Source: a virus
IMG/VR virus record: IMGVR_UViG_3300028840_007522
Coordinates: 1-22,296 of that record
DNA length: 22,296 nucleotides
Reading direction: 5' to 3' (one strand)
How positions within the stretch are numbered: the first letter of the stretch is position 1; each line of letters begins with the position of its first letter. This document shows positions 11,561-22,296 of this stretch, piece after piece. The position numbers and the translations under genes are program-made. The notes under the pieces were generated by a model. It made no database searches, was not told the DNA's origin, and saw only the letters and a program-made list of their open reading frames with translations.

Positions 11561-12488
11561 ACGTGACGTTGAGCCGCTGGACGTGGCGCCTGGCGTGTAC
11601 GGTGACGTGCCCTTCGACACGTATAAACGCTGGAACGCCATGAGCAAGAGCATGACCGGCCCGGCCCTGCGATCGGGGCGGCACCTGGAGGCGTACATCA
11701 ACGCCGAACGCGCGTCGGCCGCCATGCGGCTGGGGTCGCTGGTGGACGCCATGGCGCTGGAGCCGGTGACGGTGGACGGGCTGTTCGCCGTTCAGCCCGA
11801 CACGTACGTGAAGGATACGTGGAAGGGGCGGGCGCCGAACAAGGAGCTTGTGCGGGAGGAGAAGCCGTGGAACATGAACAGCAACACGTGCAAGGCCATT
11901 ATGGCGGAACTGGAGGTCAGCGGGAAGACCGTGGTTTCCAGGGACGATTGGGATTTCGCCGTGGCCTGCAGGGTGGCGCTGGAGACGCACCCGCTGGCGG
12001 ACGAGGCCATAAAGGGGGGCGAGAAGCAGGTGTCACTGGTATGGGCGGACCCCGACACGGGGGTGTTGTGCAAGGGCAGACCCGACCTGATTCACGGGGA
12101 TTACATCTATGACCTGAAGACCACCATGGACGCCAGCCCCGAGGCCTTCGCCCGCACCATGGCGAACTTCGGGTACCACATACAGGCGGGCATCTACACC
12201 GAGGCGTACAGGGCGCTGACGGGCCGCAGGATGGATTTCCGGTTCATAGTGGTGGAGACGGGCCAGCGGGCGGACATGGAGCCGCAGGTGGCGGTGTATG
12301 AGATGTTGCACGATGACGAGAGCATGGTGGCGGGGCGCCTGCAGTTCAAGCGGGCCGTCCAGCGGGTGGCCCACTATGGGGATGACCCCGCGGGCCTGCC
12401 CGGCTACTCGAGGTTCGCCGAGCCGATTTCCATACCGCGCTGGGCCATCAACAGGGAGTTCGATCTCCATGACGAGGTGGAAATATGA
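11547..12488 (+). CDS. PD-(D/E)XK exonuclease, RecE/exonuclease VIII-like
   Basis: 313 aa from the ATG at 11547, chosen because AAGGAG sits 7 nt upstream. It fits the RecE C-terminal/DUF3799-type phage nuclease family. AMSKSMTGPALRSGRHLEAY (residues 31-50) is followed by RLGSLVDAMALEP, and then by the active-site core: CKGRPDLI with D180, and DYIYDLKTT with D189 and K191. A YHIQAGIYTEAY helix supplies the Q213-xxx-Y motif typical of RecB-family nucleases. It should degrade one strand of linear double-stranded DNA to give single strands for annealing. The position where many relatives have His in the early G...H motif is Asp here (LGSLVDAM). It overlaps the regulator upstream and the next gene (ATGA). 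Confidence 0.85.
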   Translation: MRMVRRDVEPLDVAPGVYGDVPFDTYKRWNAMSKSMTGPALRSGRHLEAYINAERASAAMRLGSLVDAMALEPVTVDGLFAVQPDTYVKDTWKGRAPNKELVREEKPWNMNSNTCKAIMAELEVSGKTVVSRDDWDFAVACRVALETHPLADEAIKGGEKQVSLVWADPDTGVLCKGRPDLIHGDYIYDLKTTMDASPEAFARTMANFGYHIQAGIYTEAYRALTGRRMDFRFIVVETGQRADMEPQVAVYEMLHDDESMVAGRLQFKRAVQRVAHYGDDPAGLPGYSRFAEPISIPRWAINREFDLHDEVEI

Positions 12489-13228
12489 ACGAAGACAACA
12501 AAAGCGTTGAAAAAAACAACGACACGGCCCTGGCGGCGCCCGTGGCGGCCAGGCATGGCCTGTCGGCATTGGGTACCGCGGAGGACATGAAGGCGCGACT
12601 GATGGCCAACGCGGGGCGACTCAGGGTGGTGCACGATTTCATAGCCGACACCTTCGTGGAGGGCATAGATTACGGGTACGCAGATGACCGCTCCAAGAAG
12701 AAGACCCTGCTGAAGCCGGGGGCGGAGAAGGTGTGCAAGCTTTTCAACACGACCCCCATGTGGGAGAAGGACGCGGACACGTGGGAGATGATTGGCGGGG
12801 CGGCGGGCACGGTGTGCTACATTTGCCGCATAGTGGACAATTCCACGGGCCTGGTGATTGGCGAGGGACGGGGGGCGGAGAAGGTGGGGAACAAGTTGCG
12901 GGACGCCAACAAGGCCATAAAGGCGGCGGAGAAGTGCGCGCTGGTGGACGCCGCCCTGTACACCTTCAACCTGAGTGACATGTTCACCCAGGACATGGTC
13001 GCCCCCCGGGGCGAACTGGGGGCGGAGAAGCAGGAGCTTATAGCCAGGGTGGAGGACCTGCGCACGGGTTGCGACTCCAGCATGACCAACAATCAGTTCC
13101 TGCACAGGGTGGCCAGGGATTACCTGAAGGGTCCGGCGGACAGCGTTGGCGCCGTGCGGGCCTTGCGCAAGGCCATAGTCGAGGATGGGCTGTATGACCT
13201 AGCGACAGGCGATAGGATACCAGAATGA
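12485..13228 (+). CDS. Probable single-strand annealing protein, Rad52-like
   Basis: 247 aa, overlapping the exonuclease by 4 nt. The core has FVEGIDYGYADDRSKKKTLL and KPGAEKVCKLFNTTP (about residues 58-92), then alternating strands (AGTVCYICRIVDNSTGLVIG). A lysine-rich helix, GEGRGAEKV followed by ANKAIKAAEKCALVDAALYT, comes next. The 'GxGxxE ... A.kAiKaAeK.AlvDAal' block resembles the Rad52 fold pattern, and similar proteins occur beside phage exonucleases. Overlap with a RecE-like nuclease supports an exonuclease/annealase pair for phage recombination. The family link is by eye and could be wrong. The C-terminal part (residues about 180-247) is helical and unassigned. Confidence 0.65.
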   Translation: MNEDNKSVEKNNDTALAAPVAARHGLSALGTAEDMKARLMANAGRLRVVHDFIADTFVEGIDYGYADDRSKKKTLLKPGAEKVCKLFNTTPMWEKDADTWEMIGGAAGTVCYICRIVDNSTGLVIGEGRGAEKVGNKLRDANKAIKAAEKCALVDAALYTFNLSDMFTQDMVAPRGELGAEKQELIARVEDLRTGCDSSMTNNQFLHRVARDYLKGPADSVGAVRALRKAIVEDGLYDLATGDRIPE

Positions 13229-14336: not shown

Positions 14337-14583
14337 TTTGCACATAGTGGACAAGGCGACCGCCAGCGAGGCGCTGGCGATGGTGGCGTCCGCGCCCAAA
14401 TGTTACGTCGGCGTAGCCGCGAATGCGGGGGATGTGATATGGGTGGAGACCATTAGACAGATGCTGTCTGACGCCATAGCTTTGGAGGCGGCCAGGCGCA
14501 ACCCCATGCTTTTGAGCGCGTACCCGGGGCGGGTGTGCCTTGGCTATACCGATCGGGCATGGGGGGAGGTGGGCGATGACTGA
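14329..14583 (+). CDS. Small conserved-looking protein, unknown
   Basis: 84 aa from the ATG at 14329, which follows GGAGGGAAGGAGGGGACG, a very strong ribosome-binding region. The sequence is mixed alpha/beta: SEALAMVASAPKCYVGVAAN, then VIWVETIRQMLSDAIALEAA, and a tyrosine/glycine-containing C-terminus. No family recognised. It overlaps both neighbours by 8 nt and so belongs to the same compact operon. Confidence 0.6.
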   Translation: MSDLHIVDKATASEALAMVASAPKCYVGVAANAGDVIWVETIRQMLSDAIALEAARRNPMLLSAYPGRVCLGYTDRAWGEVGDD

Positions 14584-15373
14584 GCGGCCTTTGCTGATGA
14601 AGGGGCGGCTAGTGCTGGCCACCATGGAGGGGCGGAAGACGGTTACGCGCAGGATAGTGGACATGGACAGGTTGCGGGTGGTACCCAGGCGGGACGTGCG
14701 GGGCGATTATCCTTTTGACAGGGAGGCGCCGTTTCTGAAGGGCGGCGTGGCCGCGCGGGCCAGGCTGAACCCGCAGGGCGCCGTGAGCGGGTTGACGAAA
14801 ACGGGCTTTTGGCTTGGGCTGAAGCCCGGGGAGTTCGATTTCGTTTGCCCGTACACGGACGGCGAGACGAGGCTGTATGGCGAGGGCGACAAGGGCAGGC
14901 CGTGGGAGGTGGCGCCCCACCCCAATCAGTTCCTGTACGTGCGGGAGACGTGCATGCGGGTGGGGTTCCATTGCGAGCCGGGCATGGCGGAGGGCCTGCA
15001 GTATGTCCGGTACAAGGCGGACGGCAGGGAGTTGCACGTGAAACTGGATAGGGGCGAATTGCGGGCCGCCCATAGGTGGGTTCCATCCATCCACATGCCC
15101 AAGGCCTTCAGCCGGGTGTTGCTGTACGTTTTAAACGTCAGGCTGGAAAGGCTGTCGGCCATAACGGCGGCGGACACGCTGGCGGAGGGGCTGGATGGGG
15201 GCGTGATGGGCTTCACCCATGACCAGACCATATCGGCGTTCCGCGATTTGTGGAACGACATCAACGCCGCCAGGGGCTACCCGTGGGAGAGCGACTGCTG
15301 GGTGTGGAGGATAAAGTACGGCGTGGCCCGGAAAAATGCGGTGCATGGTGAACAGTTGTTGCTCAATGTATGA
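14576..15373 (+). CDS. ASCH-like phage protein
   Basis: 265 aa from the ATG at 14576 (GGGGGGAGGTGGGCG before it). It shows the ASCH-type phage pattern: LLMKGRLVLATMEGRKTVTR near the N-terminus, then FLYVRETCM, a YVRYKADG strand, and RWVPSIHMPKAFSRVLLYVL. It ends with ERLSAITAADTLAEG and FRDLWNDINAARGYPW ... WVWRIKYGV. ASCH proteins are thought to bind RNA or modified nucleic acid; relatives in phages are often labelled hypothetical or morphogenetic. Its role in this phage is unknown. It is the last gene before a short promoter-bearing gap. Confidence 0.8.
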   Translation: MTERPLLMKGRLVLATMEGRKTVTRRIVDMDRLRVVPRRDVRGDYPFDREAPFLKGGVAARARLNPQGAVSGLTKTGFWLGLKPGEFDFVCPYTDGETRLYGEGDKGRPWEVAPHPNQFLYVRETCMRVGFHCEPGMAEGLQYVRYKADGRELHVKLDRGELRAAHRWVPSIHMPKAFSRVLLYVLNVRLERLSAITAADTLAEGLDGGVMGFTHDQTISAFRDLWNDINAARGYPWESDCWVWRIKYGVARKNAVHGEQLLLNV

Positions 15374-15418: not shown

Positions 15419-15628
15419 ATGCCAAGGAAGGACCCCCGAAACTATAGCAAGGCCGTGCGCCTGACCCGCCAGGAGTTCCACCAGGTGGAGGAGGCGGCGT
15501 ACCTCGAGCACCGCACCGTGTCCGAATATTTCAGGGCTTTGCACCTGGACCACATGCGGGCGCTGGAGGACGAGGGAAGGCCGGTGGTGTACGACCCCCG
15601 GGAAGACTTTGGGCCGCTGGGGGACTGA
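15419..15628 (+). CDS. Ribbon-helix-helix (Arc/MetJ-type) small regulator
   Basis: 69 aa. A basic N-terminus leads into SKAVRLTRQEFHQVEEAAYL and EHRTVSEYFRALHLDHMRAL. This is a strand followed by two helices, with the 'sxSEyfR' turn typical of RHH DNA-binding proteins such as Arc and CopG. It has no other domain. As the first gene after the promoter, it may repress the replication operon it heads (inference). The C-terminal tail (YDPREDFGPLGD) is acidic. The next gene begins 1 nt after its stop codon. Confidence 0.7.
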   Translation: MPRKDPRNYSKAVRLTRQEFHQVEEAAYLEHRTVSEYFRALHLDHMRALEDEGRPVVYDPREDFGPLGD

Positions 15629-15629
15629 C

Positions 15630-16463
15630 ATGGCCCAACCAATCAAGGGCGGCTACTACATAAAGGCCCGTTGTATTCAGGACAGCGCGATAGCGCACGC
15701 CCCGCCGCACGTTAGGGAGATATGGGATTGGCTGTTGAAGGAGGCAAACCACGCGGACAACGGCGTGTGCAGGCGGGGCCAGTGCGTGCGCACGTACAGG
15801 GACATTCAGGAGGGGCTGGCGTGGTACGTGGGTTACAGGAAAAACACGTACAAGAAGCACCAATGCGAAAACGCGATGAAGTGGTTGAGGAAAGCCGAGA
15901 TGATAGCCACAACGAAAACTACACGGGGAATAGTTGTAACTATCTGTAATTATGGCAGATATCAGGACCCGTCAAATTACGAGTGCTACACGAGCACCGA
16001 CACGAATGCCACAATGGTGCTACAACCTCCAGCCACTATAAACAAGAATGAGAAGAATGGAAGAAAGAAAGAAGGTAACTATTTTAATGCCGACACCCTG
16101 GCGGGGTCGGCAATGACGGAATACGAATACCAGATTAGAGAGGCCCTTCTGAGGCACCATGGCGATCGGGTGGAGACCCTGAGGGCGGACACGGTGGACA
16201 AGCTGATACGCAACCTTGGCTCCGACATATACAGCGGCGTGTCCGTGCCCATGGAGATACACAGGGCGGCCATATGGGAGGACAGCAACCCCACAAGGCG
16301 CAAGACGGCCAAGGGCCTTCCCAAATTCCTCACCACGTGGATGGAGAACGCCCAGAACGGGCCAAGGCGGGGCGGCGGCGGGGGTAGCGTGTACGACAAG
16401 AACCGCGACCTGCTGGACCAGTGGGAGCGCGAGAACAACGAAAGGGACAATTATGACAAGTGA
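15630..16463 (+). CDS. Winged-helix replication initiator (phage replisome organizer-like)
   Basis: 277 aa from the ATG at 15630. The N-terminal ~110 residues fit phage replication initiator winged-helix domains: GGYYIKARCIQDSAIAHAPP, then VREIWDWLLKEANH, CVRTYRDIQEGLAWY, and KNTYKKHQCENAMKWLRKAE. This is followed by GIVVTICNYGRYQD, the usual 'ittrG..iticNY..yq' wing. A low-complexity Asn/Lys/Thr linker (INKNEKNGRKKEGNYF) joins this to a C-terminal helical domain, roughly residues 160-277, that may contact the helicase loader. The linker DNA is AT-rich with inverted repeats. Like lambda O or DnaD-type proteins it should bind the origin. Its stop overlaps the loader gene by 11 nt. Confidence 0.78.
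   Translation: MAQPIKGGYYIKARCIQDSAIAHAPPHVREIWDWLLKEANHADNGVCRRGQCVRTYRDIQEGLAWYVGYRKNTYKKHQCENAMKWLRKAEMIATTKTTRGIVVTICNYGRYQDPSNYECYTSTDTNATMVLQPPATINKNEKNGRKKEGNYFNADTLAGSAMTEYEYQIREALLRHHGDRVETLRADTVDKLIRNLGSDIYSGVSVPMEIHRAAIWEDSNPTRRKTAKGLPKFLTTWMENAQNGPRRGGGGGSVYDKNRDLLDQWERENNERDNYDK
15930..16111 (+). other. Candidate replication origin inside the initiator gene
   Basis: An AT-rich stretch with inverted repeats in an otherwise GC-rich gene: ATAGTT/AACTAT with a 2-nt spacer (15930-15943) and TATCTG/CAGATA with a 9-nt spacer (15941-15961). GTAACTAT occurs twice (15936-15943 and 16075-16082), and a purine-only run occupies most of 16045-16075. A strong hairpin follows, GCCGAC with GTCGGC, around 16089-16111. 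Lambda has its origin in the O gene in the same way. Origin function is inferred. Confidence 0.4.
16437..16446 (+). promoter_or_regulatory. Recurrent AACGAAAGGG leader motif, copy 4
   Basis: Identical 10-mer, 6 nt before the loader ATG at 16453. Unlike the other copies it lies inside the coding sequence of the gene before it. Confidence 0.6.
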
Positions 16464-17082
16464 AAAGAACGTGGTGTTGCGCGTGATGCGCCTGTTCAAC
16501 GCCGAGTTCCCCGATCGCTTCAAGTTGAACGACGAGCGGCGCAGGGTGTGGGAACACCTGCTGGCCGGGTTCGACGGGGACGTGGTGCTGGCGGCCGCCA
16601 TGCACATGGTGTCCGAGAGGCGGGAGCACCCTCCGAACATAGGGGCCTTCCGTTCCCTCGTCGTCGGCATGGCGCACGGCGAGATAGCCCCGCCATCCTC
16701 CTCCGAGGCGTGGGGCCACGTGCTGGAGAGGCTACAGGGCAGGGACACGCCCCTGACGCCGCTCGAGGCGGCCGCCCTTAAGAAGATAGGCTCGATATAT
16801 GACTTGAAGACCAGCGGCAATCTGGCGGCGGACAGGGCGCAGTTCAAGAAGGCGTTCGAGGACCTGGTGCGGGAGCGGGACACGGAGCGGAACATGTTGC
16901 CCATGGTGCGGGGGGTGCTGGAGGCCAGGACGCCGCAACTGCCAGCGCCGCCCAGCCGCGAGCTTCCGGCACCGGCGCCCTCGGCCGCCGAGGTGGACCC
17001 CGATTTCATAGCCGACCTGGTGGCCAAGGCCATGCGCCCGATAGAGACCATATGCGCCGATTATGAAAAGGATGACAACTGA
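16453..17082 (+). CDS. Helicase loader-like protein (G39P type)
   Basis: 209 aa from the ATG at 16453. The N-terminal ~75 residues show the pattern of phage helicase loaders such as G39P: MRLFNAEFPDRFKLNDERRR, then VWEHLLAGFDGDVVLAAAMH, and HPPNIGAFRSLVVGMAHG. The rest is helical and charged (ADRAQFKKAFEDLVRERDTE), then a Pro/Ala-rich linker (PAPPSRELPAPAPSAAEVD) and a short C-terminal helix that could bind the helicase. It would bring the hexameric helicase to DNA melted by the initiator encoded just upstream. The overlap of 11 nt with that gene supports joint action. The partner helicase is probably encoded by the host or outside this window. Confidence 0.72.
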   Translation: MTSEKNVVLRVMRLFNAEFPDRFKLNDERRRVWEHLLAGFDGDVVLAAAMHMVSERREHPPNIGAFRSLVVGMAHGEIAPPSSSEAWGHVLERLQGRDTPLTPLEAAALKKIGSIYDLKTSGNLAADRAQFKKAFEDLVRERDTERNMLPMVRGVLEARTPQLPAPPSRELPAPAPSAAEVDPDFIADLVAKAMRPIETICADYEKDDN

Positions 17083-19315: not shown

Positions 19316-19495
19316 ATGGAACAGCTGGAACTGGCGTTGGACCGCGGGTGCGGGACGTGCGTCAACGACTACGCCCCAAGGCCCCGTCACGATGGGGTCG
19401 GGTGCTACCACTGTTATTTCCGGCCGTTCGACGACGAGCGGGACCGCTGGGGATACATGAATTGGGAGGGCAAGACCGATGAAAGTGATATATGA
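19316..19495 (+). CDS. Small Cys-rich protein upstream of radical SAM gene
   Basis: 59 aa, starting at the ATG at 19316 (preceded by AGGGTGGG) and ending at TGA 19493-19495. It has RGCGTCVNDY, then GVGCYHCYFRPF, giving a C-x2-C ... C-x2-C pair that could bind zinc. The C-terminus is acidic and aromatic (DERDRWGYMNWEGK). It overlaps the radical SAM start by 17 nt, so the two are probably co-translated. Function unknown. Confidence 0.55.
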   Translation: MEQLELALDRGCGTCVNDYAPRPRHDGVGCYHCYFRPFDDERDRWGYMNWEGKTDESDI

Positions 19496-20195
19496 GCCGA
19501 AGGGAGGCGCCAGGGAGTACGCCCCGCTGGCGGCCAACCTGTACAGGGGTTGCATGCACGGATGCGAATACTGTTACGCGCCCAGAGTGTTGCGCATGAA
19601 CAGGGAGGATTTCAGGTACGCCGCGGCCCCCCGGCGGGACGTGCTGGAGCACCTTGCGCGGGAACTGAAGACGGGCGAATATGAGGGCAAGAGCATATTT
19701 CTAAGCTTCACCACGGACCCCTACCAGCCGATCGAGGCGGAGGCCAGTATAACCCGCAAGGCGCTGGAACTGTTCAGGGCGTACCGGGTGCACTGGAACG
19801 TGCTCACGAAATCGGCGCTGGCCGTTCGGGATTTCGACCTGTACCGCCCAGGGGACAGGTTCGGCGCCACGCTTGTGTACTTCAGCGAAAAGGAATCGGC
19901 CAGGCGGGAACCCGGGGCCTTCACCACCAAAGAGAGGGAGCGGGCTTTGCACGAGGCGCACGGCATGGGGATAGACACGTGGGTGTCTCTGGAGCCTGTG
20001 ATAGACCCGCTGGATGCGCTGGCGCTGATACGCCGCACCAGCTACTTCGTGAACGAGTACAAGATAGGCAAAATCAATTACGTTAGCAATGAAACTGACT
20101 GGTATGAATTCGCGCGCATGGCGAAAGACCTGCTGGAAAACCTTGGCAAAAGATACGTTTTCAAGGAGAGCCTCAAGCCGTACCTGCCCGAGTGA
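19479..20195 (+). CDS. Radical SAM protein, spore photoproduct lyase-like
   Basis: 238 aa. The iron-sulfur motif C-x3-C-x2-C is at residues 25, 29 and 32 (YRGCMHGCEYCYAP), with the SPL-type NLYRGC lead. Further on are KSIFLSFTTDPYQPIE, VLTKSALAVRDFDLY, and WVSLEPVIDPLDAL, all typical of SplB-like/DNA repair photolyase-type radical SAM proteins. Known relatives split thymine photoproducts or have unknown tasks, so lesion repair is only one option. It is a little short against full SplB (about 340 aa). The stop is followed by a promoter for the next gene. Confidence 0.82.
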   Translation: MKVIYEPKGGAREYAPLAANLYRGCMHGCEYCYAPRVLRMNREDFRYAAAPRRDVLEHLARELKTGEYEGKSIFLSFTTDPYQPIEAEASITRKALELFRAYRVHWNVLTKSALAVRDFDLYRPGDRFGATLVYFSEKESARREPGAFTTKERERALHEAHGMGIDTWVSLEPVIDPLDALALIRRTSYFVNEYKIGKINYVSNETDWYEFARMAKDLLENLGKRYVFKESLKPYLPE

Positions 20196-21252: not shown

Positions 21253-21444
21253 ATGAAGATGTTCGTGATGGCCGTGCTCCTGCTGTGCCTCCTCCCGCTG
21301 GTGATCATGGCGCTGGTGGCGCATGACGAAATAGGGTTCGGCCCCGGCCCTTTCGACACGGCCTGGGCCATGACCCTCTCAATAATGGCCGTGCTGTACA
21401 TGATGGCCATGTTCCTGATATTGCGGTATGCGACATTCGGCTGA
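21253..21444 (+). CDS. Small two-span membrane protein, possible holin
   Basis: 63 aa with two hydrophobic spans: residues 2-22 (KMFVMAVLLLCLLPLVIMAL) and 39-60 (AMTLSIMAVLYMMAMFLILR), joined by a short charged loop (AHDEIGFGPGPFDT). Size and layout fit a class II-type small holin. It lies one gene after the transglycosylase, which supports a lysis role, but many small phage membrane proteins look alike. Its end overlaps the next gene by 17 nt. Confidence 0.55.
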   Translation: MKMFVMAVLLLCLLPLVIMALVAHDEIGFGPGPFDTAWAMTLSIMAVLYMMAMFLILRYATFG

Positions 21445-22296
21445 CAAATACCGCCCGCCCAAGGGTTTCTTCAAGGTGCCTATAAACGCCTACATGGTTC
21501 TTTGCAGGGACCATCGGCTGGTACTGCGGCTGGCGGACGGCACCCACACGGTGGAGCGCAACCTGGTGCGATATTGGCATAGGCCACAATACGACCCGAA
21601 AGCCAAGTGTCCGCAATACGAGGCCATAGTAAAGGACATGTTCAGGCTGTCCTCCGACCCCAAGGGGATGCGCCGCCATTATTACGAGTTCCTCGGGTAT
21701 TGCCTGCTTCCATCCAGGGTGTGCCGCCTCGAGTGGGTGTTGTACGGCGACAAACACAGCGGCAAGTTCGAGGCCCTGCGCACCGTGTCCGCTCTTTTGG
21801 GTGGTGACACCAGCCCGGAGAACATGGTGTTCGCGGACCGCCCGCCCGAGCGCCTGCACGACGAGAACCAGATGGCCCGCACCATGATATTTCCCTTCTT
21901 CGGTGTGCCCGACCCCAAGGCGCCCCCGGCCTACATCCACGACAAGGTCATAGAGCAGGAACTGAGCGGCGTTCTCAATCTGGCCCTGAAGGGCCTGCGG
22001 AACCTGATAAAACGTGGCCGTTTCAACCCTCCAGCCGATTGCGTGGAGGCCGCCCGCGAGTATTACCGCACCATGGACCAGATAGGCAACTTCCTGCGGG
22101 ACTGTTGCGTGGTGCTGGAGGACAACGCCGTCAAGACACCAGGCGCCCAGGTGTTCAACCGATACATTGACTGGTCGGGAAACAACGACCTGCGCCTTTC
22201 AAAGCAGGAATTCATATGGGAACTCCGTTCAAGGGGCATCCCATACGGTCGGGGCAAGGACAATGTCCGTCGCTTCTACGGCCTGGCGCTGGCCAA
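21428..22296 (+). CDS. Shortened SF3/D5-type helicase-like protein (partial at right edge)
   Basis: Open from the ATG at 21428 to the window end, 289 residues visible. The start resembles the D5 N-terminal region that precedes P4-type helicases (VLRLADGTH..., then YDPKAKCPQYEAIVKDMF). FLGYCLLPSRVCRLEWVLYG then leads into a Walker-A-like GDKHSGKF (residues 107-114), with Phe where Ser/Thr is expected. The C-terminal part matches the helicase end: QELSGVLNLALKGLRNLIKR, then EYYRTMDQIGNFLRD and RYIDWSGNNDLRLSKQEFIW, closing with VRRFYGLALA. The stretch that should carry Walker B, sensor and Arg finger (roughly 90 residues) is missing between residues ~125 and ~155. It is probably near its end at the window edge. 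Helicase activity is doubtful. Confidence 0.68.
   Translation, partial: MRHSADKYRPPKGFFKVPINAYMVLCRDHRLVLRLADGTHTVERNLVRYWHRPQYDPKAKCPQYEAIVKDMFRLSSDPKGMRRHYYEFLGYCLLPSRVCRLEWVLYGDKHSGKFEALRTVSALLGGDTSPENMVFADRPPERLHDENQMARTMIFPFFGVPDPKAPPAYIHDKVIEQELSGVLNLALKGLRNLIKRGRFNPPADCVEAAREYYRTMDQIGNFLRDCCVVLEDNAVKTPGAQVFNRYIDWSGNNDLRLSKQEFIWELRSRGIPYGRGKDNVRRFYGLALA

Follow-up and report, generated by a model that had tools for sequence, protein, structure and literature searches.

Introduction

According to PMC9611036, the D5 protein is built up from a collar containing a three-stranded sheet, an AAA+ domain and a C-terminal domain; the best though weak match of the latter is the DNA-binding domain of RFX (RFX-DBD), and the orientation of the helix that inserts into DNA is not conserved between D5 and RFX. 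PMC10853773 distinguishes the D5-type helicases linked to primases or polymerases, which are invariably active, from those fused to HerA/FtsK, which tend to be inactive and for which a role in helping to bind replication intermediates has been proposed. Inactive D5-type helicases are thus already known, and the novelty of the locus described here consists of a phage lineage in which such a protein stands alone and has lost a defined part of its core. Its likeness to the inactive D5 helicases of the HerA/FtsK-linked mobile and defence operons resides in the retention of an apparently inactive D5-type helicase, together with the DNA-binding role proposed for those proteins in PMC10853773. Those systems are reported to be fused or linked to HerA/FtsK whereas the present gene stands alone in a phage. 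No HerA/FtsK label occurs in the PHROG and Pfam tables of the neighbouring genes scanned, which cover part of the genes, one table holding at least 25 families. Among the titles and abstract openings listed from the open-licence literature on inactive SF3/D5 helicases, on dominant-negative SF3 proteins and satellites and on neighbouring topics, none describes a D5 helicase of a phage that carries this deletion.

The other relevant group comprises the C-terminal helicases of the P4-family primases (TIGR01613; phrog_6088, phrog_1156 and phrog_1829), which belong to the D5 branch of SF3. The core-less protein shares with them, in the same order, the lead-in, the frame of the Walker A motif, the stretch surrounding a PF motif, the helical linker and the C-terminal domain. 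It differs from them by being devoid of a primase and of about 70 residues that include Walker B and motif B', and by the replacement of the Ser/Thr of Walker A, the Asn of sensor-1 and the first Arg of the Arg-finger pair.

The stretch of DNA analysed, hereafter called the window, corresponds to a virus record 22,296 bases long, consisting of a single metagenome contig. The gene encoding the core-less SF3/D5 helicase relative (21428..22294, + strand) is the last one of the record and comprises 289 codons that run open to the contig end, with no stop codon before it. Since the counterpart P0002, found in a related record (IMGVR_UViG_3300009431_000040, G001), is complete with 291 codons, the window gene is probably short of only about two codons and the stop. 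A small upstream ORF (21253..21444, + strand), membrane-protein-like by eye, overlaps the start of the gene by 17 nt, and the overlap of its counterpart in G001 with the helicase-relative gene amounts to 20 nt.

Kinship with the P4/D5-type SF3 helicases

Each flank of the deletion is significant by itself, and on the strength of these sequence matches the core-less protein is of common descent with the P4/D5 SF3 family. Residues 1-128 alone match phrog_1156 through the lead-in and the Walker A stretch (E 7e-7), and residues 129-289 alone match phrog_6088 (E 3e-18). The D5-like lead-in (residues 54-96; 21587..21715, + strand) lies in the N-terminal part, which on its own is recognized by phrog_1156, phrog_6088 and phrog_1829. 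Both the lead-in and the C-terminal region are kept, as a preliminary description of this DNA had proposed. With the whole window protein, five phage-primase profiles of PHROG match in two stretches, along with weaker ones, and the NCBIfam P4-primase model TIGR01613 gives an E-value of 1.6e-19 with 69.9 bits. The three known members of the family score 69.9, 62.4 and 48.2 bits with this model, all below its curated cut-off of 108.7. In Pfam the window protein matches Pox_D5 only, with 14.3 bits for a cut-off of 21.4, and a sequence search of the PDB yielded nothing significant (best E 0.43).

The set of intact helicases used for comparison comprises eight phage proteins, namely those of RcapNL, TG1, AcaML1, T25, ctPCi537, C4.1, Ximenita and phi29862. 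A profile of the three core-less members aligns with these eight in hhalign with a probability of 99.6% and an E-value of 2.3e-24, with a gap in the middle of the alignment, and the identity of the members to the intact proteins is about 16-24%. The 'viral dsDNA helicase' of ctPCi537 (MW202577) shows, for each member, the highest N-part identity among the eight (26/120, 30/120 and 26/108), contains SGK in its Walker A and is located near terminase genes. It differs by its intact motor and its 514 aa, its C-part identity is the lowest among the eight for P0002 and for the third member P0003, and it sits on a long branch of the tree, so that its kinship to the core-less proteins is unsure.

Searches of phage and plasmid collections returned matches in 108, 251 and 59 records, of which the best 40, 60 and 15, respectively, were mostly annotated as primase or helicase, some being hypothetical or unannotated; among the matches listed, most fell in the C-terminal half. 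Eight records from these collections, four from the set of 108 and four from the set of 251, two of the latter covering both halves, all keep the motor motifs.

As a separate observation, phrog_7601 (289 aa, labelled as of unknown function) is aligned by three intact helicases in a single stretch starting just before Walker A (profile positions 7-263, 4-260 and 18-250). On account of this one-stretch alignment, phrog_7601 seems to correspond to intact P4-type helicases over their C-terminal half, free of the present deletion, and its label could be improved.

The deletion and the fate of the catalytic motifs

The Walker A remnant GDKHSGKF (residues 107-114; 21746..21769, + strand) retains both Gly residues and the Lys, but the Ser/Thr is replaced by Phe, just as the preliminary description had read this loop. 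At this position the three members display F, Y and H, whereas all eight intact helicases possess Ser. The deletion junction (residues 126-132; 21803..21823, + strand) follows shortly after, and about 70 residues containing Walker B and motif B' are missing there. Counted from the Lys of Walker A, the PF of an IPF-like motif is reached after 42, 42 and 41 residues in the three members, as compared to 107-128 in the eight intact proteins. When the joint profile is compared with the family, matches extend over positions of about 3-128 and 196-359, with none between. The names of the motifs (Walker B, B' and sensor-1) were assigned to the alignment columns on the basis of general knowledge of the SF3 helicases. 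The columns of Walker B and B' are empty in all three members and filled in all eight intact proteins, and no divergent form of the key motifs was recognized within the set searched.

The sensor-1 strand persists as a remnant (residues 133-140; 21824..21847, + strand), in which Asp137 occupies the place of the Asn while Pro140 is kept; this Asn of motif C is present in the eight intact proteins and replaced by D, E and E in the family. The Arg-finger stretch likewise persists (residues 148-159; 21869..21904, + strand), with AR instead of RR, followed by PFFG. The RR pair, either Arg of which may be the finger, occurs in the eight intact proteins, whereas AR, AR and EY occur in the family. The picture previously given, of some 90 residues absent together with Walker B, sensor 1 and the Arg finger, has thus to be amended. 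The core stretch is indeed missing, but its size is closer to 70 residues. Walker B, and B' as well, have gone, but the sensor-1 and Arg-finger stretches stay in register with their key residues replaced. In all three members Walker B and B' are gone, and neither the Ser/Thr of Walker A nor the Asn of sensor-1 persists, which agrees with the earlier suggestion of a non-catalytic protein; judging from these missing residues, the ATPase activity has presumably been lost.

Relatives sharing the deletion

Two further IMG/VR contigs, from other uncultivated phages, share the deletion. The first, G001, was reached via its DnaD-like neighbour gene, and its protein P0002 is 61% identical to the window protein over 289 aa, free of gaps. 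The second (IMGVR_UViG_3300031565_001000, G011) was reached via the large terminase of G001, and encodes P0003, a protein of 280 residues in an open frame which is 32% identical and exhibits the same junction. In a tree built with the eight intact proteins, the three core-less members group on one side of a branch with a support of 100/100, so that a single origin of the deletion suffices. This tree should be read with the deleted columns kept in the alignment, 2 of its 8 inner branches starred, an equally good grouping of the labels in 5 of 500 shuffles, and a long ctPCi537 branch that was possibly drawn towards the core-less family.

Depending on the scan, searches of viral contigs with the protein or the alignments returned nothing, G001 only or G011 only, and two scans of genome contigs gave no relatives. 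A motif scan yielded nine stretches, i.e., G001, G011 and seven chance matches in frames with stops. Profile searches in the records of 79 terminase loci (from the best 80 of 197 relatives), performed with a two-row profile for 48 records and a three-row profile for the other 31, recovered G001 and G011 only, and eight further DnaD-related records, in a search run without a positive control, contained no member. Three members have thus been found in all, by scans which would overlook divergent members and in records most of which are fragments.

Selection and maintenance of the gene

The preliminary description had considered the frame intact and the codon use normal, and both statements hold, with 289 codons devoid of stops up to the contig end and a GC3 of 0.78, inside the range of 0.72-0.87 that holds for all but one of the 23 further genes measured in the window. 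The exception is a DNA methyltransferase gene (PF01555; 17657-18805), with a GC3 of 0.475; owing to this low value it is probably a recent import.

Between the window and G001, the genes differ at codon positions 1, 2 and 3 by 0.31, 0.22 and 0.60, respectively. The pN/pS ratio of the window gene versus P0002 amounts to 0.39 for the whole gene (bootstrap interval 0.32-0.46), and the upper bounds for four segments, including the remnant of the core, are 0.47, 0.62, 0.54 and 0.60, so that 1 is excluded in each of them. The helicase remnant and the winged helix described below are thus conserved alike. With a pS of 0.70, synonymous differences are near saturation, and the gene is probably more strongly constrained than this ratio indicates. 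The rates of evolution of five neighbouring genes between the two records are similar. Purifying selection, tested between the window and its nearer relative only, was found in every segment. Together with the same deletion in two relatives and their grouping in the tree, it accords with the earlier view of a maintained protein rather than a fresh pseudogene, and the shared deletion argues equally against an assembly error or a lone deletion. The gene probably encodes a working protein that holds DNA, and not a dead gene.

Predicted structure of the protein

Two AlphaFold models, built from three sequences each, are confident in the C-terminal domain only; about 200 residues of each model have a pLDDT <50, so that the absence of a collar or AAA+ match proves nothing. 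The C-terminal domain (residues 212-289; 22061..22294, + strand) is predicted as a winged helix of the Pox_D5/RFX kind, with a pLDDT of 64-89 per ten-residue block from residue 211. Its best structural matches are RFX DNA-binding domains (PDB code 1dp7, solved with its DNA site; Z 9.2, 2.2 Å over 69 residues) together with the AsfvPrimPol C-terminus (Z 8.2), followed by winged-helix or PCI domains of other proteins from Z 5.6 downward. In the second model, RFX DNA-binding domains and AsfvPrimPol are again at the top of the list. Poxvirus E5, i.e., D5 proper, reaches a Z of only 4.3 in the first model and 4.8 in the second. According to the tool, models often attain a best Z of 7 to 8 in the absence of a real relationship; the value of 9.2 for RFX is only modestly higher, and the winged-helix fold is supported chiefly by the position near the top of an SF3 relative, AsfvPrimPol, as predicted by the sequence homology. 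With fair confidence, the C-terminal domain can be modelled as an RFX-like winged helix; the likeness to the RFX DNA-binding domain and to the C-terminal domains of D5 and AsfvPrimPol is one of predicted fold, over residues 212-289. The end of the wing is not conserved across the three members (FYGL, FCGL and FEKI).

In the N-terminal part, three predicted β-strands (residues 21-44; 21488..21559, + strand) are nearly the same in both models, with a pLDDT <50. The strands may tentatively correspond to the sheet of the D5 collar, and together with two helices, likewise predicted in both models, they would suit such a collar, although this low pLDDT leaves a collar or ring hypothetical.

The role of origin-binding or helicase-scaffold factor formerly put forward for this protein stands as no more than a possibility. 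The predicted RFX-like winged helix is in its favour, but no binding site, iteron array or partner was found, and a search for direct repeats that could serve as origin iterons revealed no convincing array near the gene.

The gene neighbourhood

Upstream in the window, a gene encodes a DnaD-like replication initiator or helicase loader (15609..16463, + strand; phrog_2514, E 1.2e-18), the protein of which matches no Pfam family at E 0.01. This DnaD-like gene is common to the window and G001, with 69% identity. It is followed by a possible G39P-like helicase-loader gene (16453..17082, + strand), whose product shares 68% identity with a protein of G001 along 209 codons. The top PHROGs of that G001 protein are phrog_9804 and phrog_1524, both of unknown function, the helicase-loader phrog_2289 ranking third (E 2e-4), and it reaches 20.5 bits with the G39P family PF11417, below the cut-off of 22. 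The assignment as a loader is weak, and the DnaD-like gene and the loader-like match taken together would point, though not firmly, to replication by the host DnaB.

No other SF3 helicase was detected in the records of the family. With TIGR01613, a second SF3 place is detected neither in the window nor in G001 or G011, all of which are incomplete records, and D5_N finds none in G001. A joint profile of 11 proteins, applied to loci that include the window, G001 and G011, picks up SF3 pieces in the family and in the eight intact controls only. Owing to the incompleteness of these three records, a helicase may lie outside them. When TIGR01613 was applied to 49 records, only one terminase-related record (G049) matched besides the window, G001 and G011, with an intact helicase above the cut-off; the terminase relatives accordingly give no intact helicase at the same place.

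Some other genes of these phages deserve mention in their own right. The window contains, among phage genes, a radical SAM protein (19479-20192), the nearest families of which are of the PA0069 type, below their cut-offs. Near the exonuclease and DnaD-like genes, positions 12485-13225 and 14540-15373 match phrog_10048 and phrog_874, both of unknown function. G001 harbours a PurA/PurZ-like adenylosuccinate synthetase (L006:10263-11369; phrog_1211; PF00709, E 1e-44), which scores 132.6 of 402 with the NCBIfam model PurA and 52.8 of 300 with PurZ, both below the cut-offs, and the gene may hint at modified adenine in the DNA of this phage. Among 22 proteins of G011, one matches the RNA-ligase profiles phrog_548 and phrog_968; by eye it corresponds to an ORF at L106:4559-5185, near the P0003 gene.

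Possible functions of the core-less protein

The explanation that we prefer, with about an even chance of being correct, is that a P4/D5-type SF3 primase-helicase was displaced by a DnaB-recruiting module and that its descendant, no longer an enzyme, has been maintained as a DNA-binding protein. The ancestral phage would have replaced its ring helicase by the DnaD-like initiator and probably by a G39P-like loader, loading the host DnaB. The old helicase gene would have lost its primase half and the core containing Walker B and B', and would have been retained as a DNA binder. The RFX-like winged helix of its C-terminus could hold the phage DNA at an origin, a regulatory site or a packaging-proximal site, and the N-terminal part with its vestigial P-loop may serve for self-assembly or for contact with a partner.

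The location of the gene also evokes a function outside replication, for which the winged helix would have been recruited to act as a repressor or to bind a site close to the terminase genes. Such a regulator or packaging factor, which we regard as rather unlikely, would fit the organization of G001, where the core-less gene ends a same-strand run and is convergent with its next gene, that of the terminase small subunit. It would also fit that of G011, where the core-less gene comes after a lambda-exonuclease-like gene (46.0 bits, below the cut-off of 68.05) and ends a same-strand run about 3.5 kb before the genes of the small (phrog_51, the ORF being assigned by eye) and large terminase subunits. 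However, the large terminase gene of G001 is located about 13 kb from the core-less gene, and in ctPCi537 an intact helicase also occurs shortly before the terminase genes. The place could thus have been simply inherited, and this arrangement fits a decay in place, in line with the preferred explanation, although ctPCi537 alone among the eight intact regions displays it and an intact helicase occurs in just one terminase-related record.

It is less probable still that the protein acts as a poison or a decoy, a dead protomer joining the SF3/P4-type helicases that satellites, plasmids or rival phages encode in the same cell, or competing for their origin, and thereby blocking replication. The regions flanking the motor are kept while the engine is missing, the searched records (the window, G001 and G011) contain no SF3 helicase of their own, and inactive D5-type helicases of conflict systems are described in PMC10853773. 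On the other hand, the loss of about 70 core residues has probably spoiled the subunit interface, an identity of only about 16-24% separates the protein from the eight intact phage helicases, and no satellite or target is known. A broader conjecture, to which we attach an equally low probability, is that of a lineage of dead phage SF3 subunits acting against or upon working SF3/P4 machines. Such a subunit would either poison the machines of satellites and rival replicons, or serve as a passive clamp on origin DNA that hands the DNA to DnaD, the loader and DnaB. In that event, the GxxxSGK common to the three members, where Ser/Thr gives way to an aromatic residue or His, would represent a conserved structural or Mg-independent phosphate site.

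A functionless relic in slow decay, with stops not yet collected, would account for the large deletion, the replaced motifs and the few relatives found, but is strongly disfavoured by the 289 gap-free and stop-free codons at 61% aa identity, by the excess of third-position differences (0.60 versus 0.31 and 0.22), by a pN/pS interval excluding 1 in each segment tested and by the open frame of the third member at 32% identity. Finally, a gap due to the assembly or the sequencing of what is one metagenome contig, or a core supplied by a separate gene, can hardly be invoked, the junction being common to three separate contigs and the joint profile revealing, in loci that cover the window, G001 and G011, no further piece of an SF3 helicase besides the family and the intact controls.

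Significance

If the preferred reading of a displaced and maintained helicase descendant holds, the core-less gene may be the record of a replication takeover, in which a phage lineage apparently abandoned its ring helicase in favour of that of its host while the engine-less version remained under selection. It would offer a natural test of the roles devoted to D5-type helicases besides unwinding, chiefly with respect to the binding target of the C-terminal winged helix. It also serves as a warning that the label of primase or helicase attached to a short phage gene can denote a motor-less protein.
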